Part shown: one piece after another, positions 15,608 to 35,108 of the stretch
How positions within the stretch are numbered: the first letter of the stretch is position 1
How the letters are laid out: every line of letters starts with the position of its first letter
Source of the DNA: an uncultured Oscillibacter sp.
GTDB taxonomy: Bacteria; Bacillota; Clostridia; Oscillospirales; Oscillospiraceae
DNA length: 64,000 bases
Assembly: GCA_945868085.1 (NCBI GenBank)
Contig: CAMBKF010000003.1
Location: 33,119-97,118, forward strand
Direction of reading: 5' to 3'
The notes under the pieces: model-generated
The model's input: only the letters and a program-made list of their open reading frames with translations
Database searches by the model: none
Told to the model about the DNA's origin: nothing
Made by a program: the position numbers and the translations under genes

Positions 15608-16159
15608 ATGCAGGATCTGACGGAAAAAACGCTGCAAAGCCATGAAGTTTATAACGGGCGCATCATCCGGGTGCGCAATGACGAGGTGCTGCTGCCAAAC
15701 GGCGGGCATGGGCAGCGGGAGGTAGTGGACCACCCCGGCGGCGTGGGGATATTGGCCTTTGACGACCAGGGCCGGGTGGCCCTGGTGCGGCAGTTCCGCT
15801 ATGCCGTGGGTGAGCACCTGTGGGAGATCCCGGCGGGAAAGCGGGAGAAGGGGGAGGAACCCTTCGTGACGGCGCAGAGAGAACTGAACGAGGAGGTGGG
15901 CGCCGCGGCGGCCCGATGGACGGAGCTGGGGAGCATCATCGCCTCCCCCGGCTGCTATGCCGAGGTGCTGTACCTGTACATGGCGGAGGGGCTGACCTTT
16001 TCCCGGCAGCATCTGGATGAGGACGAGTTTCTGGAGGTGCAGTTTTTCCCCTTTGCGGAAGTGGTGGAAAAGTGCATGAAGGGGGAGATACGGGACGGAA
16101 AGACCGTGACGGCGGTGCTGAAGGCCAGACTCCTGCAAGAAAAGGCTTGCACTTTATGA
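15608..16159 (+). CDS. NUDIX hydrolase (ADP-ribose pyrophosphatase type)
   Basis: EIPAGKREKGEEPFVTAQRELNEEVGAAA Nudix box; SPGCYAEVLYLYMAEGL. Confidence 0.9.
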   Translation: MQDLTEKTLQSHEVYNGRIIRVRNDEVLLPNGGHGQREVVDHPGGVGILAFDDQGRVALVRQFRYAVGEHLWEIPAGKREKGEEPFVTAQRELNEEVGAAAARWTELGSIIASPGCYAEVLYLYMAEGLTFSRQHLDEDEFLEVQFFPFAEVVEKCMKGEIRDGKTVTAVLKARLLQEKACTL

Positions 16160-18167: not shown

Positions 18168-18332
18168 ATGGAGGAAAAGGAATGGGTGCGCTGCGACCGC
18201 TGCGACGGAGAGATCTATGAGGGCGCGGAATACTATCAGATCAACGGCGAGTGCGTGTGCAGGGAGTGCCTGGAGGAATTTGCGGGACACTGGTTTGCGC
18301 CCTTTCGGCTGATCGCCGGGGAGGAGCTATGA
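18168..18332 (+). CDS. 54-aa CxxC...CxxC zinc-ribbon-like protein, first gene of phage cassette
   Basis: MEEKEWVRCDRCDGEIYEGAEYYQINGECVCRECLEEF; stop overlaps the next start (18329). Not in the supplied ORF track. Confidence 0.6.
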   Translation: MEEKEWVRCDRCDGEIYEGAEYYQINGECVCRECLEEFAGHWFAPFRLIAGEEL

Positions 18333-18700
18333 AAGGAAGGGGAGAAAGCTTCTGGCAGGAGGTGCGCCGGGCCTATGAAAACGGGGAGGGCAGCTATCAG
18401 ACCCTGGCGGACCGGTTCGGCGTGAGTCGGGGGGCTATGGCGAGCCACGGCAGGATCGAGGGATGGAACAGAGAGAAGCGGGAGACCACAGATCTGCGGG
18501 AGATGACGGGGAAGCTTTCCCGGGCAGCCATGCGGGAGATCGGACGGCTGGAGGAGGGCGAGGCGGATGTGAAGACTATCCGGGAGCTGACGGCCCTGCT
18601 GAAGGAGCTGAACCAGCTGATGAAAAGCGCCGCCGAGGAAAACGGAGAGAGCACCGTGCGGGTGCAGTGGGAGGAGGACGCGGAGCAGTGGAGCGAATAG
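18329..18700 (+). CDS. phage terminase small subunit-like HTH protein
   Basis: SYQTLADRFGVSRGAMASHGRIEGWNREK then coiled region; directly upstream of TerL. Confidence 0.75.
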   Translation: MKGRGESFWQEVRRAYENGEGSYQTLADRFGVSRGAMASHGRIEGWNREKRETTDLREMTGKLSRAAMREIGRLEEGEADVKTIRELTALLKELNQLMKSAAEENGESTVRVQWEEDAEQWSE

Positions 18701-20055
18701 AGACATTGCACTTGTCGCCGCCCAATGAAAAGCAGAAGCTGTTTTTGCAGTGCCGGAAAAAATACATCGCCTTCGGCGGCGCACGGGGCGGCGGGAAAAG
18801 CTGGGCCGTGCGCACCAAGGCGAAGCTCATGGCCCTGCGCTATCCGGGGATCCGGATGCTGCTGGTGCGGCGGACCTATCAGGAGCTGGAGAACAACCAC
18901 ATTCGGTTCCTGCGGCGGGAGCTGGCAGGGATCGCCGGCTACCGGGCTACGGCCAGGCAGTTCATATTTGCCAACGGCAGCGTGCTGGATTTCGGCTACT
19001 GCGCCTGCGACGGGGACCTGGACCGGTACCAGGGGGCGGAGTATGACGTGATCTTTCTGGACGAGGCCACCCAGCTGCGGGAGGAGTGGATGCGGCAGTT
19101 TGCGGCGTGCGTGCGGGGAGTAAACGACTTCCCTAAGCGCATTTACTACACCTGCAACCCCGGGGGACCGGGGCACGGGTACATCAAACGGCTGTTTATC
19201 GACAAACGCTATCTGCCGGGGGAAAACCCGGAGGACTATGAGTTTATCCCAGCCCGGGTGACGGACAACCGGGCGCTGCTGAAAAAACAGCCGGAGTATC
19301 TGCAGCAGCTGCAGGCACTGCCGGACAAGCTCCGGGCGGCCTGGCTGGAGGGGAAATGGGACATCTTTCAGGGGCAGTTCTTCCAGGAGTTTACCGACGA
19401 CCCGGAGCACTACCGGGACAGACGGTTTACCCATGTCATCGAGCCCTTTGACATCCCCAGGGAGTGGAGGATCTACCGCAGCTACGATTTCGGCTACGCC
19501 AAGCCCTTCTCCTGCGGCTGGTGGGCGGTGGACTTTGACGGGTGTATTTACCGCATCCTGGAGCTGTACGGCTGCACGGAGAATCCCGACGAGGGGGTGC
19601 GGTGGACCCCGGAGAAGCAATTTGCCAAGATCCGGGAGATCGAGCAGACCCACCCGTGGCTGAAGGGACGGAGCATTGACGGGGTGGCCGACCCGGCTAT
19701 CTGGGACACCAGCCGGGGAGAGAGCATCTATGAGACGGCCCTGCGGCACCGGATCTACTTTACAAAGGGCGACAACCGGCGGATCCCGGGATGGATGCAG
19801 ATGCACTACCGAATGGCTTTCGACGAGGAGGGATATCCGCAGATGTATGTATTCAAGGGGTGCAGGGCGTTTATCCGGACGATCCCGGAGCTGCGGTTTT
19901 CGGACACGGAGCCGGAGGACCTGGACACCCGGCAGGAGGACCACGCGGCGGACGAGAGCCGATATTTCTGTATGTCGCGGCCCATTCGGCCGGTGCGCCG
20001 GGGAGAGGAGCTGGCGCTGGGGGATGATCCGTTGAATATGAGGAACGGACGATGA
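18688..20055 (+). CDS. terL: phage terminase large subunit
   Basis: YIAFGGARGGGKSWAVRTKA Walker A, YDVIFLDEATQL Walker B, YRSYDFGYAKPFSCGWWAVD nuclease domain; likely GTG start at 18688. Confidence 0.93.
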   Translation: MERIETLHLSPPNEKQKLFLQCRKKYIAFGGARGGGKSWAVRTKAKLMALRYPGIRMLLVRRTYQELENNHIRFLRRELAGIAGYRATARQFIFANGSVLDFGYCACDGDLDRYQGAEYDVIFLDEATQLREEWMRQFAACVRGVNDFPKRIYYTCNPGGPGHGYIKRLFIDKRYLPGENPEDYEFIPARVTDNRALLKKQPEYLQQLQALPDKLRAAWLEGKWDIFQGQFFQEFTDDPEHYRDRRFTHVIEPFDIPREWRIYRSYDFGYAKPFSCGWWAVDFDGCIYRILELYGCTENPDEGVRWTPEKQFAKIREIEQTHPWLKGRSIDGVADPAIWDTSRGESIYETALRHRIYFTKGDNRRIPGWMQMHYRMAFDEEGYPQMYVFKGCRAFIRTIPELRFSDTEPEDLDTRQEDHAADESRYFCMSRPIRPVRRGEELALGDDPLNMRNGR

Positions 20056-20110: not shown

Positions 20111-20460
20111 GTTTTTTGCATGAGGTGCGGCGGTTATCGAGCGGGCGGGGTAGAACCCCGCCCCTACGCAGGACATGGAGTGCGGTGGGGCGGGCCGATG
20201 CTCACATCGGCCCCTACGAAACGGAACGAGGAGTGCGGTGCAGAGATATTACGGATCGCCGAGGCCAGCGTGCGCGCCGGCCTCGCAATGACAGGCTTTG
20301 GCAAGGGGCGCGGCGGCTGCCGAGCGGCGGGACACATGGGCCCCGCCCTACAGAGCCATTTGTGGGGCAGGGCATGCGCACCTCGCCGGAGGGACGGTGG
20401 TTGTCGGCGGCGGGCTGGGGGCAGCCCGCCCTGCGCATAGTGGGGAGATGCCACGACGGG
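20110..20460. repeat. Palindromic repeat mosaic between terL and portal
   Basis: gggcggggtagaaccccgcccctacg (20143), gggcgggccgatgctcacatcggcccctacg, ggatcgccgaggccagcgtgcgcgccggcctcgcaatgacagg, ggcgggctgggggcagcccgccctgcgc. Confidence 0.88.
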
Positions 20461-20575: not shown

Positions 20576-22468
20576 ATGGAGCCTATGACTTTGCAGAAAC
20601 CGAAGATCGGTGCGGAGGAGGTGCGCCGGGCGGCGCAGATCCTGAAGAAATACAAGCAGGGAAAGGCGCACCTGGAGAGCCGCATCATCGACAACGAGCA
20701 GTTCTGGAAAATGCGGCACTGGCAGCAGATGGAGAAAAACGGGCAGGGAGGCAATCCTGGCGACCCGCAGCCGGCCAGCGCGTGGCTGGTGAACTGCATC
20801 CTGTCCAAGCACGCGGACGCCATGGACTGCTATCCGGAGCCCACGGTGCTGCCCCGGGAGGAGGGGGACCGGGCGGAGGCATCCAAGCTGACGAAAATTT
20901 TGCCGGTAGTACTGAAGCAGAATCAGTTCAAGCGGACCTATTCGGACGCCTGGTGGTACAAGCTGAAAAGCGGGTGCGCCGCCTACGGCGTTTTCTGGGA
21001 CGCGGGAAAACTGGGCGGGCTGGGGGACATTTCCATCCGCAGAATGGACCTGCTGAACCTGTTCTGGGAGCCGGGAGTCCGGGACATCCAGGATTCGGAA
21101 AATTTCTTTTCCACGGAGCTTGTCAGCAATGCCCAGCTCCTGCGCAGTTATCCGCAGCTGGAGGGAAAGCTGGGAGGCGGCAGCTTCACAGTGAGCCGGT
21201 TCCTCTATGACGACACGGTGGATACCTCCGACAAGTCCCTGGTGGTGGACTGGTACTACCACACCATGGACGGGGGACGGAAGGTGCTGCAGTACTGCAA
21301 ATTCGTGGGGGAGACGGTGCTCTACGCCACGGAAAACGACTGGCAGACGCCCACGGAGCAGCGGGTGACCGGCGTGGACGAGAACGGCGAGCCCGTCCTG
21401 GAGGAGGTGCCGGTGGGCCTGCCTATGTGCAGGCGGGGCTGGTACGACCACGGGAAGTACCCGTTTGTGTTCGACGTGCTGTTCCCCGAGGAGGGGACGC
21501 CCTGCGGGTATGGATATATCGACCTGTGCAAGTCACCCCAGAAGCAGATCGACCTCATGAGCCAGGCCATCCTCAAGAACACCCTGGCGGCGGCGACGCC
21601 GAGATTTTTCATCCGGGCGGACGGCGCGGTGAATGAAAACGAGTACGCCGACTGGACCAAGCCCTTCGTTCACACCAACGGAAACCTGGGCAGCGACTCC
21701 ATCGCGCCCATCCACACGGCGGGGCTGGACAGCGTGTATGTGGCGATCCTCCAGAGCAAGATCGCCGAGATGAAGGAGACGGCGGGCAACCGCGATGTGG
21801 CCAACGGCGGCACCGCCTCCGGCGTGACGGCGGCCACGGCCATCGCGGCATTGCAGGAGGCCGGCGGAAAGCTGTCCCGAAACATGATCGACGACGGGTA
21901 CGAGGCGTTTTCCGATGTGGTGACGCTGTGTATTGAGCTGATCCGGCAGTTTTATGGGCTGCCCAGGCAGTTCCGCCTGCTGGGGGGCGAATTTGCCAGC
22001 TATGACAACGCGGGGCTGCAGCCGGTGGCTATGAGCGACGGCGTGGAGACCTCCTACCGGGTGCCGGTGTTTGACCTGGAAATTTCCGCCCAGCAGGAAA
22101 ATCCCTACAAGACTATGGAGTACAACCAGTTTGCCCTGCAGCTGTTCCAGATGGGGTTCTTCCGGGAGGACATGGCCCCCCAGGCCCTGCGGTGCCTGGA
22201 GCTGATGGACTTTAAGAACAAAGACATGGTGATGGCCATGATACAGAACGGGCAGACCCAGCAGAGGGAGATCCAGCAGCTGCGCCAGCGGCTGATGCAG
22301 GCGGCGGCTGTGGTGGACCAGGTGAAAGGGACCCATCTGGCCCAGCAGCTGGCCCAGGAGTACGCCGCGGCACAGAAGGACGCCAAGGGCAGCGCCTGGC
22401 AGGCCGGAAAGCTCAGCTCCGTGGAGCGCACCAGGCGCGGCACCCGGGAGGCGGTGCGGCCCAAATGA
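20576..22468 (+). CDS. phage portal protein
   Basis: Position after TerL; AWLVNCILSKHADAMDCYPEPTVLPREEGDRAEASKLTKILPVVLKQN; long C-terminal helical/Q-rich region. Confidence 0.85.
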   Translation: MEPMTLQKPKIGAEEVRRAAQILKKYKQGKAHLESRIIDNEQFWKMRHWQQMEKNGQGGNPGDPQPASAWLVNCILSKHADAMDCYPEPTVLPREEGDRAEASKLTKILPVVLKQNQFKRTYSDAWWYKLKSGCAAYGVFWDAGKLGGLGDISIRRMDLLNLFWEPGVRDIQDSENFFSTELVSNAQLLRSYPQLEGKLGGGSFTVSRFLYDDTVDTSDKSLVVDWYYHTMDGGRKVLQYCKFVGETVLYATENDWQTPTEQRVTGVDENGEPVLEEVPVGLPMCRRGWYDHGKYPFVFDVLFPEEGTPCGYGYIDLCKSPQKQIDLMSQAILKNTLAAATPRFFIRADGAVNENEYADWTKPFVHTNGNLGSDSIAPIHTAGLDSVYVAILQSKIAEMKETAGNRDVANGGTASGVTAATAIAALQEAGGKLSRNMIDDGYEAFSDVVTLCIELIRQFYGLPRQFRLLGGEFASYDNAGLQPVAMSDGVETSYRVPVFDLEISAQQENPYKTMEYNQFALQLFQMGFFREDMAPQALRCLELMDFKNKDMVMAMIQNGQTQQREIQQLRQRLMQAAAVVDQVKGTHLAQQLAQEYAAAQKDAKGSAWQAGKLSSVERTRRGTREAVRPK

Positions 22469-22743
22469 TCCGGGTGACGGCGGAGCCGGGACGGCTGACC
22501 CTGGAGGGGCACGCGGACTATGCCCCGGCGGGGAAGGACATCGTGTGCGCGGCGGTATCGGCCCTGGTACTGGCCCTGGCGGAGCGGCTGCAGGAGAAAA
22601 ACCTGGTAAAGGAGCTCATTATGCGGCCGGGGTATGTGCGCATCGCCATGCGGGGCGCGGACAGGGAGGCGGAACTGGTGAAATGCGGGCTGCGGCAGCT
22701 GGAGAGGCGGTTTCCCCGGTGCGTGGAGGTGAATGAAAAATAG
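22465..22743 (+). CDS. ribosomal-processing cysteine protease Prp family, phage-cassette encoded
   Basis: LTLEGHADYAPAGKDIVCAAVSALVLALAE (GHA...G.DIVCAAVS catalytic motifs); overlaps the portal stop. Confidence 0.9.
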   Translation: MIRVTAEPGRLTLEGHADYAPAGKDIVCAAVSALVLALAERLQEKNLVKELIMRPGYVRIAMRGADREAELVKCGLRQLERRFPRCVEVNEK

Positions 22744-22886
22744 GCGGCGCGCAAAAAAACCTCGCAGAGTTCGCGTCCGCAGACGCGAAAAAGTTCAAAG
22801 GAATTTTCGACAGGTCCAGATGGCCATTTCTCCCGGCGAGGGAGTGATGATACGGGTCGTGGCCTACCACGGGAAAGGATGAGACC

Positions 22887-23474
22887 ATGGAAATGGAAGA
22901 AAATCAGGCACAGCTTTGTGAAGCATCGGGCGATACGGCTCCCGACGCCGGGGGGCAGGAGGACTTCGAATCTTTGATCCGGGGCAGGTACAAGGAGGAG
23001 TTTGATGCCAGGGTGCGCAAGATCCTGGACGGACGGCTGCGGGGCATGCGGCAGGAGAATCAGCGGCTGAAGGAACAGAAGGAGATGCTGGAGCAGGCGC
23101 GGAAAGCGGAGGCGGCGGAGCGCATTGACCGGCTGCGCAGGCAGGAGGGAGAGCTGAAGCGGCTGTATCCGGACTTTGACTGGCAGAAGGAGATGCGCAG
23201 CGAGGGCTTCGGGCGGCTGATCCTGGCTGGGGTGGAGCCCCGGACGGCCTATGAGACGGTACATGGCCGGGAGCTGATGAAAAAGGCCATGCGCTACGCT
23301 GCGGGACGTACCCGCAGGCAGGTGGCCGGGAGCCTGGCCAGCGGCATGAGCCGGGTGGCGGAAAACGGCGGCAGGAGCATTGCCGTGACGGCCAGCGACC
23401 CCCGAGGACTGACCAGCGAGGATCTGGCGGACATCCGCCGGCGTGTACTGGACGGGGAGAAGATCCGATTCTGA
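22887..23474 (+). CDS. phage scaffold-like protein
   Basis: Acidic, coiled-coil protein between protease and MCP; position typical of scaffold. Confidence 0.7.
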   Translation: MEMEENQAQLCEASGDTAPDAGGQEDFESLIRGRYKEEFDARVRKILDGRLRGMRQENQRLKEQKEMLEQARKAEAAERIDRLRRQEGELKRLYPDFDWQKEMRSEGFGRLILAGVEPRTAYETVHGRELMKKAMRYAAGRTRRQVAGSLASGMSRVAENGGRSIAVTASDPRGLTSEDLADIRRRVLDGEKIRF

Positions 23475-23514
23475 CGGAGAGCGCTGGGGGAGATTTTGAC
23501 CTTTGGGGACGGGC

Positions 23515-23660
23515 GCGGGCGCGGAGCGCCCTTGCAATGACACCACTTACAGGAAATGTCGAGCGAGGGGAGTGCGGATTGCCACACCAGTGACGTCGGT
23601 CACTGGTTCGCAATGACAGGGTTTTTGCAAGGGATGCGGTGGAGGTCCGGCGGCGGGGTG
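23515..23660. repeat. ggattgc...gcaatgaca palindromic repeat region
   Basis: gcggattgccacaccagtgacgtcggtcactggttcgcaatgacagg. Confidence 0.85.
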
Positions 23661-23785
23661 AGGGGAGCGAATCGAGCGCTGCCGGTGGCAGAAAAAGCGA
23701 GATGAGCGAGTGGCCGCGGTCAAAATTTTAAGCGTCCGCCGTAAGGCGGCGCAGAAATTTTGGGCACCGCAACAGAACCGCCCTA
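23655..23785 (+). repeat. Dispersed palindromic repeat (copy 2 of the pgk-linked element)
   Basis: gagtggccgcggtcaaaattttaagcgtccgccgtaaggcggcgcagaaattttgggcaccgcaaca. Confidence 0.9.
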
Positions 23786-23859
23786 CGCAAGCACAAGAGC
23801 TGCGGTACAGACCCGGCGGACGGGCAGAGGCGTCAGCTTCTACGGATGCGCTGCAAGGA

Positions 23860-23960
23860 GTGCGTAAGGGAGGGGCTCTGCCCCTCTCGCGGGCGGGGTA
23901 GAACCCCGCCCCTACGGAAGCATTGCAAGAGGTGCGGCGGCTGATGGCGGGGCATCCTCG
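23860..23960. repeat. Palindromic repeats
   Basis: gaggggctctgcccctc and gggcggggtagaaccccgcccctacg (23891). Confidence 0.88.
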
Positions 23961-24043
23961 TGACGACAGGGCTTTGCAAGGGACGAAATCTTCAGAGCGC
24001 GGGAGAAAGTGAAAAATTTTTATTGAAGAAAGGAAAGATGACT

Positions 24044-25261
24044 ATGGAACTGAACTATCAGATGTTTGCAGACGCGAACACCCAGACTACCGGCGGCCTG
24101 TCCGCCGAGATGAAGACCTATTACGGCATGGAGCTGCTGGAAAATGCCAAGCCCCAGCTGGTACACAACCAGTTTGCCGCCACCAAGCCCCTGCCTGTGG
24201 GCGGCGGCAAGACCGTGGAGTGGCGTAAGTTCGGCGCCTTTGACAAGGCACTGACACCTCTGACCGAGGGCGTGACCCCCGACGGCAGCGGCATCTCCGT
24301 CAGCTACATCACCAAGGAGCTGGCCCAGTACGGCGACTACACCACCGTGTCCGACATGCTGGACCTGACCGCCATCGACGACGTGGTGCTGGAGATCACC
24401 GACCGCCACGGCAACAACATGGGCCTGACCCTGGACACCGTGACCCGCAATGAGATCCAGCAGGGCAACCAGGTGATCTATGCGCCGGTGCTGGGCGAGG
24501 GCGGCAAGCAGACCGCCGTGACCAGCCGCGCGGCCCTGACTCCCGCCTGCAAGATGACCAGCGAGCTGGTGGCCAAGGCCGCCACCCAGCTGAAGAAGAT
24601 GAACGCGCCGACCTTTGACGGCAAGTATGTGTGCATCATCCACCCCTCCGTGGCCTTTGACCTGCGCCAGGACGAGGCGTGGATCGCCGCCCATCAGTAT
24701 GCCGCCGCCACGGAGCTGTTCTCGGGCGAAATTGGCGAGCTGCACGGCGTGCGCTTCGTGGAGACCACCGAGGCCAAGATCTTCTGCGGCGCCGACCTGG
24801 CATCCAACGCCCGTAATCTGGCGGTGAAGGGCGCAGTGACGAACAACGCCACCGTGGCCTTTGACGGCGGCACCGTGGCAGCCGGCAGCCTGGCCGGCCG
24901 CTATGTGATCATCGGCGGCAAGCGCCACAAGGTGCTCAGCAACACCACCGGCTCCATGACCCTGGCGGAGGCCATTACCGCCGATGACGACGCCGTTATT
25001 TATCCCGGCGAGGGCGGCGCTGAGGGCTGCGCCGTGTATGGCTGCCTGTTCGTGGGCAAGGGCGCATACGGCGTGGTGGATCTCAGCGAGGGTACCGAGG
25101 TCATCGTGAAGCCCCGGGGCTCTTCCGGCACCGCCGATCCCCTGGATCAGCGCTCCAGCGTGGGCTGGAAGGGCATTCACGCCGCCGCTATCCTGTACGA
25201 CGAGTACATGGTGCGCGTGGAGTGCGGCTCCTCCTACTCCAAGGAGGACAAGGCCAACTGA
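24044..25261 (+). CDS. phage major capsid protein
   Basis: MELNYQMFADANTQTTGGLSAEMKTYYGMELLENAKPQLVHNQFAATKPLPVGGGKTVEWRKFGAFDKALTPLTEGVTPDG; N4-gp56-like pattern; start at 24038 or 24044. Confidence 0.9.
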   Translation: MELNYQMFADANTQTTGGLSAEMKTYYGMELLENAKPQLVHNQFAATKPLPVGGGKTVEWRKFGAFDKALTPLTEGVTPDGSGISVSYITKELAQYGDYTTVSDMLDLTAIDDVVLEITDRHGNNMGLTLDTVTRNEIQQGNQVIYAPVLGEGGKQTAVTSRAALTPACKMTSELVAKAATQLKKMNAPTFDGKYVCIIHPSVAFDLRQDEAWIAAHQYAAATELFSGEIGELHGVRFVETTEAKIFCGADLASNARNLAVKGAVTNNATVAFDGGTVAAGSLAGRYVIIGGKRHKVLSNTTGSMTLAEAITADDDAVIYPGEGGAEGCAVYGCLFVGKGAYGVVDLSEGTEVIVKPRGSSGTADPLDQRSSVGWKGIHAAAILYDEYMVRVECGSSYSKEDKAN

Positions 25262-25300: not shown

Positions 25301-25445
25301 GGTCGGGCGGGGTAGAACCCCGCCCCTACGGAGTATCAAGTAGTTTGGTACGGTGGGACGATGTGGGCATCGTCCCCTACGAGATGTTTTGCGGGGCGGG
25401 GTGCATGTGCACTGCGGCGGGGTGAGGGCACCCCGCCCTACGGGC
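25301..25445. repeat. Palindromic repeat mosaic downstream of MCP
   Basis: gggcggggtagaaccccgcccctacg; gggacgatgtgggcatcgtcccctacg; ggcggggtgagggcaccccgccctacg. Confidence 0.9.
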
Positions 25446-25500: not shown

Positions 25501-25704
25501 ATGAAAGAGGAAATGTGCAAGGTTTATCTGCCCAGGGGCAGAAAGAACGAGGAGAATTTTGTGATCGTGTCCGTGAACGGACGCAGCTACAAGATCATGA
25601 AGGGCGTGGAGGTGGAGGTGCCCGCGTGCGTGGCGGAGGTGCTGGAGAACAGCCGCATGATGGCTGACGCCGCCCGGCGCTATGTGGACACCATGGCCAA
25701 CTGA
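25501..25704 (+). CDS. small phage structural-region protein, unknown
   Basis: RBS aaaggag; 67 aa ORF after MCP. Confidence 0.65.
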   Translation: MKEEMCKVYLPRGRKNEENFVIVSVNGRSYKIMKGVEVEVPACVAEVLENSRMMADAARRYVDTMAN

Positions 25705-25717
25705 GAAGGAGGACACT

Positions 25718-26089
25718 ATGGGCAAAATGACGGCGGGACAGGTGCTGACCCAGGTGGACAGCCTCCTGCCCAACGCATACACCCGGGAGGAGAAGCTCCG
25801 GTGGCTGCTGCAGGCGGAGGGCACCCTCATCCGGGAGGTGCTGCAGCCGGTGGACCGGGAGACATCCGTGCCGGAAAAGCTGGAGGAGAGCACCGTGCTG
25901 ACGGCCGGGACGCCCTATGACGGGCTGTACGGCCTGTATGTGCAGGCGCAGATCCACTACGCCGACGGCGACATGGTGCGCTGGAACAACGCCATGACCC
26001 TGTGGAACCGGGGCGTGGAGACTCTGCAGGCGGAGACGCTGCGGAAAACGGGTGGGACGCAGGCGGCGAAATGCCTGCGCCTTTGCTGA
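25718..26089 (+). CDS. putative head-tail adaptor protein
   Basis: RBS aaggagg; QVLTQVDSLLPNAYTREEKLRWLLQAEGTLIREVL; position. Confidence 0.6.
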   Translation: MGKMTAGQVLTQVDSLLPNAYTREEKLRWLLQAEGTLIREVLQPVDRETSVPEKLEESTVLTAGTPYDGLYGLYVQAQIHYADGDMVRWNNAMTLWNRGVETLQAETLRKTGGTQAAKCLRLC

Positions 26090-26104: not shown

Positions 26105-27823
26105 ATGTTCTTTCCGATGCTGAAAAAGACGGGACTGGAAAGGGTGACGGTGACGGATCTTCCGGGCCTTGACCGCAGGGAAACGGCTAAGATCGGTGGA
26201 TTCCGGGAGATGCGGAACCTGTGCGGGGAGGGATACCCCGCCCTGCGGACCCGGCCGGCAAGGGGGCTGGCCGCCACGGTGACCAAGCCCGGCGGCCTGA
26301 CGGCAAAGGACGCCCTGATCTGGGTGGACGGCACGCGCATCCGCGTAAACGGCGAGGCGGTGGGCCCGGTGCTGACGGAGGGAGAAAAGGATTTGATCAG
26401 CATGGGGGCGTATCTGATCGTTTTTCCCGACAAGGTGTATCTCAACACCAAGGATCTGACGGACTACGGCAGCCTGGAGTGCGAAAGGACTGCCTCGGCG
26501 GGGGTGGCCATCAGCCTGTGCGACGCGGAGGGCACAACCTACAGCGACGTGGTCCAGAGCGCCGGAGCGCCGGAGGACCCGGAGGAGGGGGCGCTGTGGA
26601 TGGATGTATCCGGCTCGGAGCCGGTGCTGCGGCAGTACGGGCAGGATTGCTGGACGGCCCTGCAGAACGTGTGCGTGAAGCTGCAGGCGACCCTGCTGGG
26701 AAAGGGATTTGCCGCCGGGGACGGCGTGACGGTCTCCGGCTGTGCCGCGGCAAGGCTCAACGGGGAGAAGGTCCTGCAGGCGACAGGGGAGAATTGGGTG
26801 GTCTTTCCCGGGATCGTGGCGGGGAATACCTCCCAAAAGACGGCGGTGACCATCAGCCGCACCGTGCCGGAGATGGACTTTGTAGTGCAGAGCGGCAACC
26901 GGCTGTGGGGGTGCCGGTACGGCATGACGGACGGCGAGGCCGTGAATGAGATCTACGCCAGCAAGCTGGGGGACTTTAAGAACTGGAGATGCTTTGAAGG
27001 ACTGTCCACGGACAGCTACGCCGCGGCCAGAGGCTCCGATGGGGCATTTACCGGAGCGGTGAGCTATCTGGGAAACCCCATCTTCTTCAAGGAGCGCTGC
27101 ATGGAGCGGGTGTACGCCGGAAGCCAGGGGGCTCATCAGATCGTGACCACGGAATGCAGCGGCGTGCAGAAGGGCAGCGCCAAAAGCCTGCAGGTGGTGG
27201 GCGGCGTGCTGTACTACCTGTCCGGCGAGGGCGTGCAGGCCTTTGACGGGAGTTTGCCGGTGACGGTATCCCAGACCTTGGGCGAGAAACGATACAGCGC
27301 GGGCGTTGGCGGCGTGTGGCGGGAGAAATACTATCTCTCGGCACTGGACGAGGACGGCGCGGCTTCCCTGCTGGTATACGACAGCGAGAGAAAGCTGTGG
27401 CACCGGGAGGACGAGCTGCGGGCGGTAGGTTTTGCCTGCAAGGGCGGAGAGCTTTACTGCCTGAGCGCGGACGGAAAGCTGCTGAGCATGCACGGCGAGA
27501 GCGGCGAAAAGGAAACGGGCTTTACCTGGCTGGCGGAGACCGGGGAACTGGGACTGCAGACCCCGGAGCGCAAGCGGATGACGCGGCTGCTGCTGGCGCT
27601 GCGGCCCGAGCAGGGGGCGACGGTGGCGGCATGGGTCAGCTATGACCGGGGAGCCACCTGGCAAAAGCAGGGGCAGATCACCGGCAGCGGCGACATACGG
27701 GAGCAGCTGGTGGCCATACGGCCCAGGCAGTGCCGGGCCATGCGGCTGAAGCTGACCGGCAGCGGCCAATGCGTCATTTTTGCCGCCACGGCCCTATACG
27801 AGAGAGGAAGTGACCGGCTGTGA
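26105..27823 (+). CDS. phage structural protein, putative beta-propeller tail nozzle/stabilization protein
   Basis: GAVSYLGNPIFFKERCMERVYAGSQGAHQIV..., YLSALDEDGAASLLVYDSERKLWHRED, LYCLSADGKLL: repeated beta-blade-like units. Confidence 0.6.
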   Translation: MFFPMLKKTGLERVTVTDLPGLDRRETAKIGGFREMRNLCGEGYPALRTRPARGLAATVTKPGGLTAKDALIWVDGTRIRVNGEAVGPVLTEGEKDLISMGAYLIVFPDKVYLNTKDLTDYGSLECERTASAGVAISLCDAEGTTYSDVVQSAGAPEDPEEGALWMDVSGSEPVLRQYGQDCWTALQNVCVKLQATLLGKGFAAGDGVTVSGCAAARLNGEKVLQATGENWVVFPGIVAGNTSQKTAVTISRTVPEMDFVVQSGNRLWGCRYGMTDGEAVNEIYASKLGDFKNWRCFEGLSTDSYAAARGSDGAFTGAVSYLGNPIFFKERCMERVYAGSQGAHQIVTTECSGVQKGSAKSLQVVGGVLYYLSGEGVQAFDGSLPVTVSQTLGEKRYSAGVGGVWREKYYLSALDEDGAASLLVYDSERKLWHREDELRAVGFACKGGELYCLSADGKLLSMHGESGEKETGFTWLAETGELGLQTPERKRMTRLLLALRPEQGATVAAWVSYDRGATWQKQGQITGSGDIREQLVAIRPRQCRAMRLKLTGSGQCVIFAATALYERGSDRL

Positions 27824-28584
27824 GCGTGATGGAGATGCCCGCCGCCCCTGCGGGAACGCTGGCGCAGCAGGTGCAGCAGCAGTACACCTATTTATTTCGG
27901 CTGGCGCAGGCGCTGAACCGGGCCATGGAGCAGGTGGAGGGCACTGCCGGGGCGCAAGTGGTGCAGGCGCAGCGGGCGAAGGCCAGCAGCCGGGAGGCCC
28001 GGGAGGAACGGGCGCGCCAGGCGGCGACGCTGAAGAGCCTCATCATCAAGTCGGCGGACGTGGTGCGGCAGGAGATGGAGCAGCTGGCCACGGAGCTGAA
28101 GGGGAGCTATGTGGCACAATCGGAATTCGGCGACTATTTGGAGAGAATCAGCCAGCGGATCGAGGCGGACCCCAGCCAGCTGAGCCAGTATTTTAAGTTT
28201 GCCTCGGACATCCGGGCGGATGTGGACCGGGTGGGGGTGGACTTTGCCTCCTACAAGACCGACGTGGAGGGGTACATCCGCCAGGGCATTGTGGGCTATG
28301 ACGGCACCGTGCCCATTATCGGCATCGCCATCGGCCAGGACATCCGCACCAGTCAGACCGGTGTGGAGACGGAGCAGGGCGTGTACGACGTCATCGACAA
28401 GAGCAGCAATATGTCCGTGTGGACCACGGAGAAGCTGTCGTTCTACATCGGCGGGCAGGAGACGGCGTATTTTTCCAACGGCAAGCTCACCGTGGCCCAG
28501 ATCGCTGCGGACCGCATCACCGGCGCGGGGAAATGGGACGTGAGCTTCACCAGCGGGGTGAAATTCAAATGGATCGGAGGATGA
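27820..28584 (+). CDS. phage minor structural protein (coiled-coil N-terminus, tail-associated C-terminus)
   Basis: GTG start overlapping previous stop; KLSFYIGGQETAYFSNGKLTVAQIAADRIT resembles prophage tail proteins. Confidence 0.65.
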   Translation: MSVMEMPAAPAGTLAQQVQQQYTYLFRLAQALNRAMEQVEGTAGAQVVQAQRAKASSREAREERARQAATLKSLIIKSADVVRQEMEQLATELKGSYVAQSEFGDYLERISQRIEADPSQLSQYFKFASDIRADVDRVGVDFASYKTDVEGYIRQGIVGYDGTVPIIGIAIGQDIRTSQTGVETEQGVYDVIDKSSNMSVWTTEKLSFYIGGQETAYFSNGKLTVAQIAADRITGAGKWDVSFTSGVKFKWIGG

Positions 28585-28588
28585 GGAA

Positions 28589-30526
28589 ATGGCCACCAGC
28601 GGCGTTATCAGTACAAATGTGAAATATGGCTCATGCTTTTGGGTAAAATGGGCCATCTCCGGCAGCCAGAGCATCGCCGACAACAAGACCACCATCGCCT
28701 GGTCCTGCGGCCTGACCCCGGGGGAACAGTATTACACCAACGCCATCAAGATGTCGGAGGTGACGATTGCCGGCGTGAAGGTATACGCCGGCGGCACCTA
28801 CTCCAACATTACGGACTACGAGGACCGCACCTTCGCCTCGGGAACGCTGGAGCTGAGCCACAACGCAGACGGCACCAAGAGCTTTACCGTGGCGGCCTTT
28901 TCCGGATGGCTGTACGGCAACGGCGATTACACCGCCGCCGCCAAGAGCTACACCCTGCCCACCATACCCCGGGCCACCACACCCAATATCGGGCCGGTGA
29001 CCATCGGCGGCAAGGCGACCATCAGCCTGCCCCGGGCGTCTACGGCCTTTACCCATACGCTGAGCTACAGCTTTGGCAGCGCGTCGGGGACCATTGCCAC
29101 CAAGGCGGGGAGCAGCTATACCTGGACCGTGCCGGAGAGCCTGGCGACGCAGATCACAAGCAAGCTCAGCGGCACCGGGACCCTGACCTGCAAGACCTAC
29201 AAGGGCAGCACGCTCATCGGCACGAAGTCGGTATCCTTCAAGGCGACGGTGCCGGGCAGCATGAAACCCACTTTGACCACGGGCTGGGCTACAGTGACCT
29301 ACGACAACAGCGGCACCAAGGCCAGCACCATTGCGGCGTGGGTGCAGGGCTACTCCAAGGCCAAGGCCACCTTCAGCAGCGGCAAGGTCACCTGCAAGCA
29401 GGGGGCCACGGTGAAGGGATACTCCATCACCTATCTGGGTAAGACCGTGTCGGTCAGCCCGTACCGGACGGGGACCATCACGGCTACCTCCGCCAAGGTG
29501 CGCTGCACGGTGACGGACAGCCGGGGACTTGCGGCCTATGAGGACTTTTCCATTACGCTGCTGGCCTACGCCAGGCCGGCGCTGAACGGGGTGAAACTGT
29601 ACCGCTCGGACGCCGAGGGCAAGGCGGCGGACAGCGGCACGCACATCGCGGGCATCGCCACGGCGAAGTATTCGGCCCTGGGCGGGAAGAACGCGGTGAC
29701 CATCAAGGGCTACTGGAAAAGTGTGGGCGGCAGCTACGGCAGCGGCGTGACCATGCAGGCCGGGACGGCGAAGGTCATCAGCGGCAGCACGGAGCTCAGT
29801 ACGGAGAAAAGCTATACGGCAAAGATCATCGCCACCGACAGCCTGGGGAACACCGCCTCCTACGAGGCGACCATCCCCACGGAGAAGGTGGCCTTTCACC
29901 TGAAGGCGGGGGGAGACGGCGCCGCCTTCGGCAAGATGGCGGAAAAGTCCAAGGCGGTGGAGCTGGCGCCGGACTGGGCGCTCCACGCGGGGCGAATGCT
30001 CTACATGGGTGGCAGCAAGGCGACGAACACGGAGAAGGACATATACTTTCAGACCATGGACGGGGCCACCTACCCCCACAACGTGGGCGTTTTTGGCGGC
30101 AATGGGGAATCCACGGCGGCCTGGGGCGTCTACGACTCCAAAAACAGCCGCAGCGTGATCCGCTACGACGATGTGGCGGGGACGTTGACGCTGCTGGGCC
30201 AGGGCCTGGGGCCGGTGAACCTGACGGTCAGCGCGTCCGGATCGAGTTTAAAGAGCTTCAGCGCCACGGCCCTGCACTCTGCCATGCTGGGAATTGGTTT
30301 TTTGCGGGTGTCGGGAGAGACTAATGCTGCGCTAACGGCGGATACGACATACGACATTGCCAGCATAGGCGAGCACATCCCCACGGCCACCTATGCCCTG
30401 AGCGTGTACTGCCAGAAATCCCTGGATGCGCGGCTGACCACCTCCGGGGTCATACAGATCCGGCCCAAAGAGGCCATTGCCGCAGGGTACGGCATTTACA
30501 TCGCCGGAATGTGGATCGCAAAATGA
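28589..30526 (+). CDS. DUF859 family phage minor structural protein (putative adhesin)
   Basis: MATSGVISTNVKYGSCFWVKWAISGSQSIADNKTTIAWSCGLTPG...; S/T/G-rich beta repeats. Confidence 0.75.
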   Translation: MATSGVISTNVKYGSCFWVKWAISGSQSIADNKTTIAWSCGLTPGEQYYTNAIKMSEVTIAGVKVYAGGTYSNITDYEDRTFASGTLELSHNADGTKSFTVAAFSGWLYGNGDYTAAAKSYTLPTIPRATTPNIGPVTIGGKATISLPRASTAFTHTLSYSFGSASGTIATKAGSSYTWTVPESLATQITSKLSGTGTLTCKTYKGSTLIGTKSVSFKATVPGSMKPTLTTGWATVTYDNSGTKASTIAAWVQGYSKAKATFSSGKVTCKQGATVKGYSITYLGKTVSVSPYRTGTITATSAKVRCTVTDSRGLAAYEDFSITLLAYARPALNGVKLYRSDAEGKAADSGTHIAGIATAKYSALGGKNAVTIKGYWKSVGGSYGSGVTMQAGTAKVISGSTELSTEKSYTAKIIATDSLGNTASYEATIPTEKVAFHLKAGGDGAAFGKMAEKSKAVELAPDWALHAGRMLYMGGSKATNTEKDIYFQTMDGATYPHNVGVFGGNGESTAAWGVYDSKNSRSVIRYDDVAGTLTLLGQGLGPVNLTVSASGSSLKSFSATALHSAMLGIGFLRVSGETNAALTADTTYDIASIGEHIPTATYALSVYCQKSLDARLTTSGVIQIRPKEAIAAGYGIYIAGMWIAK

Positions 30527-30554: not shown

Positions 30555-31664
30555 ATGGCGAGAAAACTTTGGCGGGGCAACACGGGCAGCTCCGTGGTGG
30601 AGCTGCAGCAGAAACTGAATCAGAACGGATACCACCTGGATGAGGACGGCGTGTTCGGCAGCAACACCTACAAGGCTGTGGTGGATTACCAGAAAAAGAA
30701 CAAGCTGCTGGTGGACGGCGTGGTGGGCGACGAGACCTGGGGGAGCCTGAACAAGGCACAGCAGCAGGCCGCCGCGCCCGCAAAGCCCACCACGGGCAAG
30801 GACGTGATGAAGGGCGTGTCGGACGAGACCTACAATAAGCTGCACCAGCTGGAGCAGGGGTATGTGCCGTCGGACGAGGTGAAGGCGGCGCAGGAGATGC
30901 GCAGAAGCATGGAGGCGCTGCAGCCGGGGGAATACAAGTCCTCCTTTGAGGATGAGCTGTCACAGCTCTATGAGCAGATCGCCCAGCGCAAGCCGTTTGC
31001 CTATGACCCGCAGACAGACGCACAGTACAAAAACTACGCGTATCAGTATGCTCGGAAGGGGCGGGACGCCATGGAGGACACCATGGGCACCGCTGCCGGA
31101 CTGACGGGCGGTTATGCCTCCAGCTACGCCCAGACGGCGTCCCAGCAGGCCTATGACCGCTATATGCAGGAGCTGGCGGGGCTGATGCCGGAGCTGGAAA
31201 GCAGCGCCCGGCAGCGGGATCAGGATCAGCGCAACTGGCTGACGCAGCGGTACGAGCAGGTGAGCGAGCAGGAGCAGGCGGCCTACAAGCGCTATCAGCA
31301 GGAGCAGGCGGACTGGCAGGAGAGCTACGACCGGGCCGGCAAGGAGGCGGACGCCCTGCGGGAGCAGGAGTATGCCGACTACAAGCTGATGCTGCAGCAC
31401 TACACGAGCAAGGCCAACGCGGAGCAGAAGGCCTCCGGCGATGTCCGGGCCAATTCCGGCGCCGCGGCAAAGACGGAAAAGAAAACGACCCTCAGCTCTA
31501 CGGCCATGGAGAGCCTGCAGCGGGCCATGGGAAACTATCTCAAGGGCGGAAAGACCCAGGAGGCTGCGGCCCTGGCACAGCAGTATGGCAGCCGCATGAC
31601 GGCCATGCAGAAAAAGCGGCTGAAGAAGCTGTTTGGCACATACGGCACGAATTTGGCCATATGA
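30555..31664 (+). CDS. peptidoglycan-binding domain protein with long coiled-coil/Q-rich region
   Basis: VVELQQKLNQNGYHLDEDGVFGSNTYKAVVDYQKKNKLLVDGVVGDETWGSL; GTAAGLTGGYASSYAQTASQQAYDRYMQEL. Confidence 0.8.
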   Translation: MARKLWRGNTGSSVVELQQKLNQNGYHLDEDGVFGSNTYKAVVDYQKKNKLLVDGVVGDETWGSLNKAQQQAAAPAKPTTGKDVMKGVSDETYNKLHQLEQGYVPSDEVKAAQEMRRSMEALQPGEYKSSFEDELSQLYEQIAQRKPFAYDPQTDAQYKNYAYQYARKGRDAMEDTMGTAAGLTGGYASSYAQTASQQAYDRYMQELAGLMPELESSARQRDQDQRNWLTQRYEQVSEQEQAAYKRYQQEQADWQESYDRAGKEADALREQEYADYKLMLQHYTSKANAEQKASGDVRANSGAAAKTEKKTTLSSTAMESLQRAMGNYLKGGKTQEAAALAQQYGSRMTAMQKKRLKKLFGTYGTNLAI

Positions 31665-31787: not shown

Positions 31788-32798
31788 ATGGACGGATTTT
31801 ACTACAAAGGACTGAACCGGGAGGAAAAGTCCGCCTATGAGCAGATGCGGGCGGGATTTGAGAGCCTTGCACCCGCCATCCGGGTGACGCGGCTGGAGCC
31901 GGCGCGGCTGGCGGAGGTCTACCTGCGGCTGAAGCTGGATACGCCGCTGCTGTTTTATGTGACGGGGTACAGCTACCGGTTTTATCCCGGGGCGGGACAT
32001 GTGGAGCTGCTGCCGGAATACCTGTTTGACAGGGGGAAGATCCGCACCAATCAGCAGGCCATAGCCGCCCGCATAGAGCGGCTCACCCGGCCCCTGCGGG
32101 GAAAAAGCCAGCTGGAAAAGGAGATGGCCATCCACGACTTCATACTGGACGGCGTCCGCTATGACAAGCTGAAGAAATCCTATTCCCATGAGATCATCGG
32201 CCCCCTGACCCAGGGGGTGGGCGTGTGCGAGGGCATCGCCAAAACGGTGAAGGTGCTGTGTGACGCAGCGGGGGTGGAGTGCATCATCGCCCTCAGCGAG
32301 GCAAACCCGGAAAGAGGTGTACGCTACCGCCATACCTGGAATGTACTCACAATAGACGGAAAGCGATACCATATGGATGCCACCTTTGATAACTCCCTGC
32401 AGCGAGGCGTCCATCGGTATGACTACTTCAACCTGGATGACAGGCACATTTTCCTGGATCATGAGGCGCTGGTGCTGCCGGTGCCGGAATGCACGGAGGA
32501 CAAGGGGTATTATTACCGCTCTGTTTCCCTGACGAAAACGGAGGACGTGGCAAACCGCGTGCGCCAGGCGCTGCGAAAAAAGCAGAAGCAGTTTGTGTTC
32601 CACTGGCGTGGCGGCGGGCTGAACCGGGAGATCCTGAACGAGATTCTAGAGAAGGCTGCGGAGGAGGCAGGTAAGAAGGGCCTGCAGGTGAGCTGCGCTG
32701 TGAATGTGCGCCAGGCGGTGATCCAGCTGGATTTCGGCACGGCCCGGGAGACGGAGCTGCAGCAGCCGGACGAGGGGCAGGAGGACGCAGAGACATGA
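31788..32798 (+). CDS. transglutaminase-like domain protein
   Basis: GVCEGIAKTVKVLCDAAGVECIIAL...YRHTWNVLTIDGKRYHMDATFD (Cys-His-Asp). Confidence 0.85.
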   Translation: MDGFYYKGLNREEKSAYEQMRAGFESLAPAIRVTRLEPARLAEVYLRLKLDTPLLFYVTGYSYRFYPGAGHVELLPEYLFDRGKIRTNQQAIAARIERLTRPLRGKSQLEKEMAIHDFILDGVRYDKLKKSYSHEIIGPLTQGVGVCEGIAKTVKVLCDAAGVECIIALSEANPERGVRYRHTWNVLTIDGKRYHMDATFDNSLQRGVHRYDYFNLDDRHIFLDHEALVLPVPECTEDKGYYYRSVSLTKTEDVANRVRQALRKKQKQFVFHWRGGGLNREILNEILEKAAEEAGKKGLQVSCAVNVRQAVIQLDFGTARETELQQPDEGQEDAET

Positions 32799-32860
32799 CG
32801 GATGCCCACCTGTGAGACGGGAAATGGGCCCTGGGGCTCATAGAATAAGGAGGATTTGTG

Positions 32861-33451
32861 ATGGCAAAGAAGGCGGGGCGGAACACAAAGGCGCGGATCG
32901 TGGCGGCGGCGTGGAAGATGTTTTACGAGCAGGGGTATGAGGACACCACGGTGGAGGACATCGTGTTTGAATCCGAGACCTCCAAGGGGTCGTTTTACCA
33001 TTACTTTGACGGCAAGGACGCGCTGCTGGGATCCCTGTCGGTGCTGTTTGACGAAAAGTACGAGGAGCTGCGGCCCCAGCTGGATCCGGAGGCGGACGCG
33101 GTGGACACACTAGCGTTCCTGAATCGGGAGGTATTCGGCATGATCGACAACAGCGTGTCCATGGAGCTGCTGGCAAGGCTGCTGTCCTCCCAGCTGGTGA
33201 CCCGGGGTGAAAAGCATCTGCTGGACCGGAGCCGCACCTATTTTAAGCTGCTCTATCAGATCATCCGAACGGGTCAAAGCCGGGGCCAGCTGCGCACGGA
33301 CATGACTGCCAATGAGATCGTGAAGGCTTACGCCATGTTTGAGCGAGGACTGATGTATGACTGGTGCCTCAGCGGCGGCGAATACGCCCTGAGCCGGTAC
33401 AGCGCCCTGATGATGCCGATGTTTTTGCAGGGATTCCGGGTGACCGAGTGA
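32861..33451 (+). CDS. TetR/AcrR family transcriptional regulator
   Basis: NTKARIVAAAWKMFYEQGYEDTTVEDIVFESETSKGSFYHYFDGKDALL. Confidence 0.92.
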   Translation: MAKKAGRNTKARIVAAAWKMFYEQGYEDTTVEDIVFESETSKGSFYHYFDGKDALLGSLSVLFDEKYEELRPQLDPEADAVDTLAFLNREVFGMIDNSVSMELLARLLSSQLVTRGEKHLLDRSRTYFKLLYQIIRTGQSRGQLRTDMTANEIVKAYAMFERGLMYDWCLSGGEYALSRYSALMMPMFLQGFRVTE

Positions 33452-33531
33452 ATTCTTAGAAATATTTTTTTCGAACTTGCTGCGGTATTGAAAATGGTCC
33501 ATAAAAAAATATATATAAAATAAGAAGATTT

Positions 33532-33583
33532 TTGACTTTATACAGAACGATGTATAGAATTCATTCTATACATCGTTCTGTAT
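33532..33583 (+). promoter_or_regulatory. putP promoter overlapped by a perfect 44-bp palindrome (double TetR-type operator)
   Basis: TTGACT-17-TAGAAT; ATACAGAACGATGTATAGAAT-tc-ATTCTATACATCGTTCTGTAT. Confidence 0.8.
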
Positions 33584-33650
33584 TTCGTTCTTGTTATGTT
33601 TGTGTTATACTTGCCTGCGTTAAGCTAAGAATACGTTAGGAGTAAAAGCT

Positions 33651-35108
33651 ATGATAATCAGCGAAGTTATTGTATTTGTGGTCTATTTGATCTTTATGCT
33701 GTCCATCGGCGTGTATTTCTTTATTAAGAACCGCAATGGCGGCGAGAAGACTTACTTCCTGGGCGGCCGTCAGATGGGTCCCTGGGTCACGGCCCTGTCT
33801 GCAGGCGCCTCCGACATGAGCGCCTGGGTGCTCATGGGCCTGCCTACCTCCATCTACGCCCTGGGCGTGGGACAGGTGTGGATCTCCGTGGGCCTGGCCA
33901 TCGGCTACACCATTAGTTGGATCGTGGAGGCGCCCCGGCTGCGGCGGTTCTCCATTGTGGCCAATGACTCCATTACCATCCCCCAGTACCTGACCAACCG
34001 GTTCCTGTCCAAGTCCAAGGCCCTGCAGATCATCTGCGCGGTGATCTTCCTGGTGGCTTACACCGTGTATGCCGCCTCCAGCGTGAAGGCCTGCGGTACC
34101 CTCTTCAACACCGTCATCGGTATGGATGAGACGGCGGCTATGTACCTGGCTTCCATTATTATCATTGCCTATACCTTCCTGGGCGGCTTTTCCGCCGTGT
34201 GCTGGACGGACTTTTTCCAGGGTATGCTGATGCTGGGTGCGCTGCTCATCGCCCCGATCTTTGCCCTGTTTATGCTCCAGGGCGCGGGTGTGCATCCTGT
34301 GGATACCCCCAACTATTTCAATGCCTTCGGCAACTGGAAGGATGTTGTGTCCGGCCTGGGCTGGGGCCTTGGCTACTTCGGCATGCCCCATATCATCATC
34401 CGCTTCATGTCCCTGGAATCCCAGAAGAGCCTGAAGAAGTCCGCCAAGATCGGCATTACCTGGACGGTGCTGATCGTTATCTTTGCTGCCGCGGTGGGTA
34501 TCATCGGCCGCCTGTTCCTGGGCTATGATGAGTCCATCAACGGCCACTCCCTGGTGTTCATCACCATGGTGCGCAAGATCTTCCCGGGCGTGATCTCCGG
34601 CCTGCTGCTGTCGGCTGTGCTGGCGGCATCTATGTCCACGGCGGATTCTCAGCTGCTCATGGCTGCCAGTGCCTTTGCCAGCGATGTGTATAAGCCCGTG
34701 TTCCGCAAGGGCAAGGCCAGCGACAAGGAGATGATGTGGGCGGGCCGTATCGTGGTTCTGATCATTGCTGTGGTGGCGCTGCTCATCGCCTCCGACCCCA
34801 AATCCGGCAGCATCATGTCCCTGGTGTCCAACGCGTGGGGCGTGTTCGGCGCGGCCTTCGGCCCGGCCATTATGCTGAGCCTGTTCTGGAAGCGGTTCAC
34901 CTTTGCTGGTGCTGTGGCCGGCATCGTTGTGGGTGCGGCTGTGGATGGCCTGTGGCTGGCCTTCCTGTCCGGCACGGGCATCTATGAGATCATCCCCGCC
35001 TTTGCTGCCAGCATGCTCGCCGCCGTCGTGGCTTCCCTGCTGAGCAAGAAGCCCGGCAAGGACGTAGAGGAGCTGTTCGACAAGGCTGCGAAGTTTGAGG
35101 AAGAATAA
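33651..35108 (+). CDS. putP: sodium/proline symporter (SSS family)
   Basis: YFLGGRQMGPWVTALSAGASDMSAWVLMGLPTSIYALG, STADSQLLMAASAFASDVYK. Confidence 0.93.
   Translation: MIISEVIVFVVYLIFMLSIGVYFFIKNRNGGEKTYFLGGRQMGPWVTALSAGASDMSAWVLMGLPTSIYALGVGQVWISVGLAIGYTISWIVEAPRLRRFSIVANDSITIPQYLTNRFLSKSKALQIICAVIFLVAYTVYAASSVKACGTLFNTVIGMDETAAMYLASIIIIAYTFLGGFSAVCWTDFFQGMLMLGALLIAPIFALFMLQGAGVHPVDTPNYFNAFGNWKDVVSGLGWGLGYFGMPHIIIRFMSLESQKSLKKSAKIGITWTVLIVIFAAAVGIIGRLFLGYDESINGHSLVFITMVRKIFPGVISGLLLSAVLAASMSTADSQLLMAASAFASDVYKPVFRKGKASDKEMMWAGRIVVLIIAVVALLIASDPKSGSIMSLVSNAWGVFGAAFGPAIMLSLFWKRFTFAGAVAGIVVGAAVDGLWLAFLSGTGIYEIIPAFAASMLAAVVASLLSKKPGKDVEELFDKAAKFEEE

Follow-up and report, generated by a model that had tools for sequence, protein, structure and literature searches.

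Prp of Staphylococcus aureus is a host protease that cuts ribosomal protein L27 and also the capsid and scaffold proteins of phage 80alpha (PMC9405229, PMC5744158). An uncleavable 80alpha capsid protein is viable, showing capsid cleavage to be dispensable, whereas assembly requires the scaffold leader (PMC5744158). In Streptococcus phage Cp-1, a capsid protease of MEROPS clan CR is reported to trim the capsid protein, with about 40 residues removed (PMC9405229). A further related system, FpGTA, is a podovirus-like element of Faecalibacterium resembling a gene transfer agent (GTA); it was described in a 2026 study of faecal virus-like particles, which also reported GTA-like packaging in Oscillospiraceae, the operon for which was not reported (PMC12946183). 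Here we analyse a virion gene cluster of an uncultured Oscillibacter sp., contained in a 64,000-nucleotide stretch of DNA (contig CAMBKF010000003.1, positions 33,119 to 97,118; hereafter the window), which encodes a Prp of its own together with a Prp-type cut-site at the N-terminus of its major capsid protein (MCP). The explanation that we hold with good confidence is that this cassette Prp cuts the capsid leader of its own cluster, and the scaffold too in relatives, that the pair is co-evolving, that host-independent maturation is possible, and that the locus is most likely GTA-like.

The cluster shares with the S. aureus Prp/80alpha pair the protease family, the catalytic residues and an LQxF|A-type site at the capsid N-terminus. 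Unlike 80alpha, which borrows the protease of its host, the window cluster encodes its own, and some relatives have sites that have shifted to F|D or F|G. Cp-1 is similar in that a phage-encoded protease of the same clan is reported to trim the capsid. By our own identification, which draws on a weak PF04327 match (E = 0.0024, below the cut-off) and a GHG...C motif, this protease is probably orf13. Cp-1 differs in being a phi29-like phage, and in having no LQxFA in the first 40 capsid residues. The P22-like Bacillus megaterium podoviruses Page, Pony, and Pascal have a capsid of a related family (about 35% identity), but are complete phages and contain no match to the cassette Prp at the limit used.

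The cassette Prp and the capsid leader

The open reading frame (ORF) at 22465-22743 (+ strand, 92 amino acids), which lies between the portal and scaffold genes and whose start overlaps the portal stop codon, encodes a Prp cysteine protease (PF04327, MEROPS C108). Prp hallmarks had been recognized here in a preliminary description made from the letters of the window alone, which quoted GHADYAPAGKDIVCAAVSAL; that stretch is present, and the assignment is borne out by the PF04327 profile score (E = 1e-13, 51.8 bits against a curated cut-off of 27), by the fold and by five key residues. The PHROG match is phrog_4478, annotated as ‘peptidase’. In an alignment of 13 genus-level cassette Prps, G15, H16, D25, C28, and S32 are invariant, and these correspond to the key residues G21, H22, D31, C34, and S38 of S. 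aureus Prp (PMC9405229). The AlphaFold2 model of the window Prp has a pLDDT of 91, and a Foldseek search with this model gave 11 matches with E < 0.001, all of them solved Prp-family entries (1s12, 2g0i/j, 2idl, 7kld, and 7jvs, the last being substrate-bound S. aureus Prp). A phmmer search of the window Prp against PDB sequences gave no match, whereas the fold comparison did.

The MCP gene (24044-25261, + strand; phrog_1357, PF13252) encodes a P22-like capsid protein, as identified from its neighbours and its PHROG family (phrog_1357 ‘major head protein’, E = 6.5e-78). Its best start is 24044, with AGGA about 9 nt upstream, giving MELNYQMFADANTQT; a start at the ATG 6 nt further upstream would extend it by MT. 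The N-terminus reads MELNYQMF|ADANTQT, with the predicted cut between Phe8 (24065-24067) and Ala9 (24068-24070), and the leader MELNYQMF (24044-24067, + strand) is predicted from comparative alignment to be removed by Prp. That the MCP start matches the LNLQxFA-type Prp site, as the preliminary description had noticed, is confirmed by the genus alignment: the 13 genus-level MCPs compared all have Q at P3, F at P1, and A at P1', and the leader varies across the genus in length and sequence (MYAYYYDLQLFA, MNDHIYDLQLFA, MEKLFDLQVFA, and MDNIKHFHLQMFA). P4 is Tyr in the window lineage, versus the usual Leu.

A motif as short as Q-x-F-A might instead be a chance stretch or serve as an assembly motif, a reading compatible with the dispensability of capsid cleavage in 80alpha (PMC5744158). 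Its loose form is indeed frequent, occurring at 251 of the 1005 ORF starts that follow a ribosome site in the bacterial regions retrieved, a high background. The strict form, defined as [LIMYV]Qx[FLMW][AS] within the first 24 residues, occurs at 47 of the same 1005 starts, about 40 of which belong to MCP, scaffold or L27, and its background is about 0.6%. With the joint loss of site and Prp, the presence of the same site on the unrelated scaffold with a matching P1' residue, and the covariation with the enzyme loop (all described below), we regard a chance or assembly motif as very improbable.

The scaffold-like protein of the window (22887-23474, + strand; assigned by phrog_13908, position, and relatives) has no clear site, in agreement with the preliminary description, which on this ground had predicted capsid-specific processing. 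The prediction fits the window lineage and fails for many relatives, since a site is present on both capsid and scaffold in 16 of 51 clusters compared. The predicted structure of the capsid protein has a pLDDT of 39, and we draw from it no claim on the position of the leader in the shell. In the middle of the MCP, about 74 residues (roughly 247-322; window 24800-25000) are absent in several close relatives (clusters L018-L020 and L022, in genomes G009, G031, G028, and G023), and this stretch is, judging by the alignment, probably an optional insertion domain.

Co-occurrence, joint loss and covariation of enzyme and site

Many families of the order share the arrangement terL-portal-Prp-scaffold-MCP along with several genes further downstream, and a capsid profile matched 58 of 394 genomes, belonging to 31 of 168 genera. 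Co-occurrence was counted in 51 clusters with a readable portal-to-capsid stretch; clusters L148, L152, L153, L176, L063, and others, in which the portal or Prp position is unreadable, were omitted, and four (L053, L067, L070, and L174) were corrected by eye before counting to the LQxF[AG] site visible in their N-termini. The capsid site was found in all 45 clusters with Prp and in none of the 6 without (Fisher p = 5.6e-8). Counting strict sites only, the figures were 34/45 and 0/6 (p = 7e-4), and counting by genus, 12 against 4 (p = 5.5e-4). On the tree of TerL, portal, and MCP, Prp and site each change four times and on the same branches, as joint losses. The uncounted cluster L063 (genome G020) has a leaderless capsid and a single Prp match in a 78% complete genome, and would fit the pairing.

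Genomes that lack the host enzyme separate the two candidate partners of the capsid site. In three genomes of genus g145 (G285, G396, and G349) and in genome G093, L27 is short (MAHKKG) and a host Prp is missing beside rpmA, but the cluster Prp and the capsid site are kept. The cluster Prp of G093 is strongly diverged (GHA and CCSIS; PF04327 E = 0.038), and this Prp-like ORF between portal and scaffold rules out G093 as an exception carrying a site without a Prp. In G048, G081, G337, G380, and G414, L27 is short, there is no Prp match anywhere, and the capsids begin directly at mature-like sequence. Hosts without a Prp of their own thus keep the cluster pair, and Prp-free hosts have no capsid site, which argues that the capsid site is partnered by the cassette Prp and not by the host Prp. 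That the pair outlives the host Prp, and that its two members are lost jointly, suggests that the leader is costly if kept on, or pointless without the enzyme. Such hosts are natural experiments showing host independence.

The sequences of enzyme and site also vary together. In seven clusters the capsid P1' residue is Asp (e.g. LNLFD, LSLFD, and LTQFD), and in all seven the His-Cys spacing of Prp is 8, 13, 14, 15 or 23 instead of the standard 12, compared with an odd spacing in 2 of 38 F|A and F|G clusters (p = 8e-7). The Asp three residues before Cys is missing from Prp in five of the seven. The hosts of these F|D clusters keep F|A in L27. Because the His-to-Cys stretch of S. aureus Prp holds the flexible substrate-binding loop L2 (PMC9405229), an F|D site accompanied by an alteration in this stretch is the expected look of enzyme-substrate co-evolution. 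Among the 16 clusters with both sites, the P1' class is the same on capsid and scaffold in 14 (permutation p = 0.001). The pairing of the cassette Prp with the MCP N-terminus, first put forward from the window alone, is supported by the co-occurrence counts, the four joint losses, the Prp-lacking hosts, and the loop covariation.

The source genome itself contains a second Prp gene (G000:C5:26031-26345) between rplU and rpmA, a position (the host ysxB place) distinct from that of the cassette gene between portal and scaffold; the two proteins are 26% identical. Its L27 is long, starting MLYIGLQFFA|HKKG, other L27 genes read in the genus have the common leader ML[YHN]IGLQ[FL]FA|HKK, and a Prp match was present in 32 of 32 genus genomes searched; E. 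coli gave none. Several genera of the order have neither the L27 leader (start MAHKKG) nor a Prp beside rpmA (L234, L237, L240, L244, L246, L255, and L258-L260), and this joint loss is a natural record of losing an otherwise essential protease. With host Prp and a long L27 throughout the genus, the MCP might be processed by the host enzyme, as in 80alpha (PMC5744158), and the cassette Prp might be a relic or act on another protein. We consider this unlikely: purifying selection acts on the cassette Prp, which has lost none of its catalytic residues; the cassette pair persists in four hosts that have no host Prp; and where cassette sites have become F|D, the cassette enzyme has changed too, host L27 remaining F|A.

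Several points nevertheless weigh against a dedicated, host-independent pair. Host Prp could also cut the MCP in the source genus; since this genus retains host Prp and long L27, host independence rests on the relatives and not on the source genome, and the earlier proposal that a cassette with its own Prp would not depend on the host enzyme holds for relatives without host Prp and is not borne out by the source genome. The clusters are related, so that the Fisher values overstate independence; fairer measures are the tree and the counts by genus. Strict counts are given too because it took the looser pattern to recognize the F|D and F|G sites. Finally, cluster L177 of genome G302 has no Prp and no capsid site, yet its scaffold starts MKNIYLPIKISLQFFASEE, with LQFFA; no L27 match was found in this genome either.

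From these comparisons we infer the cleavage and its timing as follows. The block would encode a short-tailed, P22-like particle, during the assembly of which the cassette Prp would most likely cut the MCP at F8|A9, freeing the leader MELNYQMF, and in many relatives would cut the scaffold as well. Enzyme and cut-site would co-evolve inside the cluster, and maturation of the particle need not rely on host Prp, which serves L27.

The pairing extends to viral sequences, in which Prp, scaffold, and capsid are arranged as in the window. We analysed 76 IMG/VR loci encoding related Prps, some of them on near-duplicate contigs, and found the strict site on nearby same-strand ORFs in 58, at typical distances downstream of Prp of about 0.35-0.45 kb, the place of the scaffold, and 0.9-1.4 kb, the place of the capsid. 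Several of the capsid starts with the site look unrelated to the window capsid family. On the opposite strand, which holds few ORFs, the strict site was found in none. Such phages appear commonly to use Prp for head maturation, and the pairing of a virion-encoded Prp with a capsid site is apparently widespread and not described as such, our literature searches having turned up no more than 80alpha with its use of host Prp and the protease of Cp-1. The 80alpha puzzle, a phage borrowing an essential ribosome protease, becomes a self-contained and widely spread enzyme-substrate pair. The collection provides some 45 naturally occurring pairs of enzyme and site, F|D and F|G variants included, for learning the specificity of Prp, a proposed antibiotic target (PMC9405229). 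Four phage contigs (L268, L269, L272, and L285) carry a further LQxF[AS] site about 3.5 kb after Prp, perhaps on a tail protein; a Prp site has also been mentioned for a staphylococcal tail protein (PMC5744158).

Inheritance of the block and its possible relation to GTAs

The virion gene block occupies about 13 kb (18.3-31.7 kb of the window) in the chromosome of a gut bacterium and is P22-like, with terminase, portal, Prp, scaffold, capsid, internal-virion-like, DUF859, and lysis-like genes identified by Pfam and PHROG. Compared by description only, it resembles FpGTA, whose host order is related by name to that of the window host and which is a chromosomal operon of about 10 kb with TerS, TerL, portal, scaffold, and capsid, without replication genes and near-ubiquitous in its genus. 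Unlike the block, FpGTA has no protease mentioned (PMC12946183), and the accession spacing suggests one gene between capsid RCH50849.1 and portal RCH50851.1, so that a Prp is probably absent there.

Among the 31 other genomes of the genus, 24 have a capsid match, of two types that are 76-96% and about 50% identical. In about ten species the window-type block adjoins the same host genes, namely a NUDIX gene upstream (15608-16159, + strand) and/or a downstream flank (31788-35108, + strand) of transglutaminase (31788-32798), TetR (32858-33451), and sodium:solute symporter (33651-35108). All six genomes of genus g83 also have a block copy. The block genes are under purifying selection, with dN/dS relative to the near species G018 of 0.10 for TerL, 0.16 for portal, 0.22 for Prp, 0.16 for scaffold, and 0.07 for MCP, and their dS (0.34-0.63) is close to that of host Prp (0.42). 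By Mantel test, the clusters and the host rpoB genes have correlated distances (r = 0.36-0.70, p ≤ 0.04); only nucleotide distances of rpoB were used, its dN/dS above 1 being most likely an antisense-frame artefact. No integrase or lysogeny module was found in the block or in the window flanks examined, and the block holds no replication genes. The nearest integrase on the window contig is about 40 kb off, and only in G008 does one lie within about 8 kb.

The pattern is that of a domesticated virion locus, probably passed on for the most part vertically but with some exchange or relocation. Set against it are the existence of two cluster types, the six of 31 other genus genomes that gave no capsid match, among them G010 (97% complete), the location of some block copies at other chromosomal sites, and the distances of the cassette Prp gene, which show no significant correlation with those of host prp (p = 0.09). 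The block could also be the remnant of an ordinary P22-like prophage that was never domesticated, a question that concerns the block and not the Prp-capsid pairing. It carries the virion gene set of short-tailed phages, Bacillus phage Page is one example of a phage with a related capsid, some copies lie at different sites, and the window has long intergenic gaps with repeats. However, the frames are intact and under purifying selection, the host flanks are common to about ten species, integrase and lysogeny genes are lacking from the block, and every g83 genome holds one copy; a prophage remnant is thus possible but, to us, doubtful.

We regard the block as a candidate, and most likely, GTA-like element. 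Besides giving a specific locus as a candidate for DNA packaging in gut Oscillospiraceae, it is a natural candidate for the packaging operon left unreported in the 2026 study (PMC12946183). The fullest version of this proposal, in which the block is the Oscillospiraceae GTA, perhaps the operon missing from that study, with its own co-evolved Prp independent of the host L27 protease, is one that we put forward tentatively and would lean slightly against.

The second cluster type of the genus, with a capsid about 50% identical, is represented by L065 and L138-L144 (genomes G003, G004, G012, G022, G024, G025, G026, and G029). It has conserved flanks of its own in G003, G024, and G026, and both types are present in G004 and G029.

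Other genes and repeats of the block

All remaining genes of the block lie on the + strand. A TerS-like small terminase, a short HTH-type protein (18329-18700), is placed directly before TerL and is 32-56% identical to the ORF at the same position in relatives; it has no Pfam match. The large terminase TerL (PF03237/PF04466, phrog_979) is listed as an ORF at 18463-20055, with the true start probably near 18.7 kb, and is followed by the P22-like portal protein (20576-22468; PF16510, E = 1.6e-25; phrog_156). Downstream of the MCP, a small protein (25501-25704; phrog_15239), a second protein (25718-26089; phrog_12105), and an internal-virion/tail-like protein (26105-27823; phrog_511) are conserved in the clusters of relatives. 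Comparison with relatives also identifies a conserved cluster protein with no assigned role (27820-28584), which precedes a DUF859 phage structural protein (28589-30526; PF05895, E = 2.9e-48). The last gene encodes a peptidoglycan-binding, endolysin-like protein (30555-31664; PF01471, PHROG endolysins), in which the peptidoglycan-binding domain is present and a catalytic domain was not recognized. A 21-base repeat, GGGGTAGAACCCCGCCCCTAC, occurs in three exact copies (20147-20167, 23895-23915, and 25309-25329; expected number 0), all confined to the long intergenic gaps of the block.

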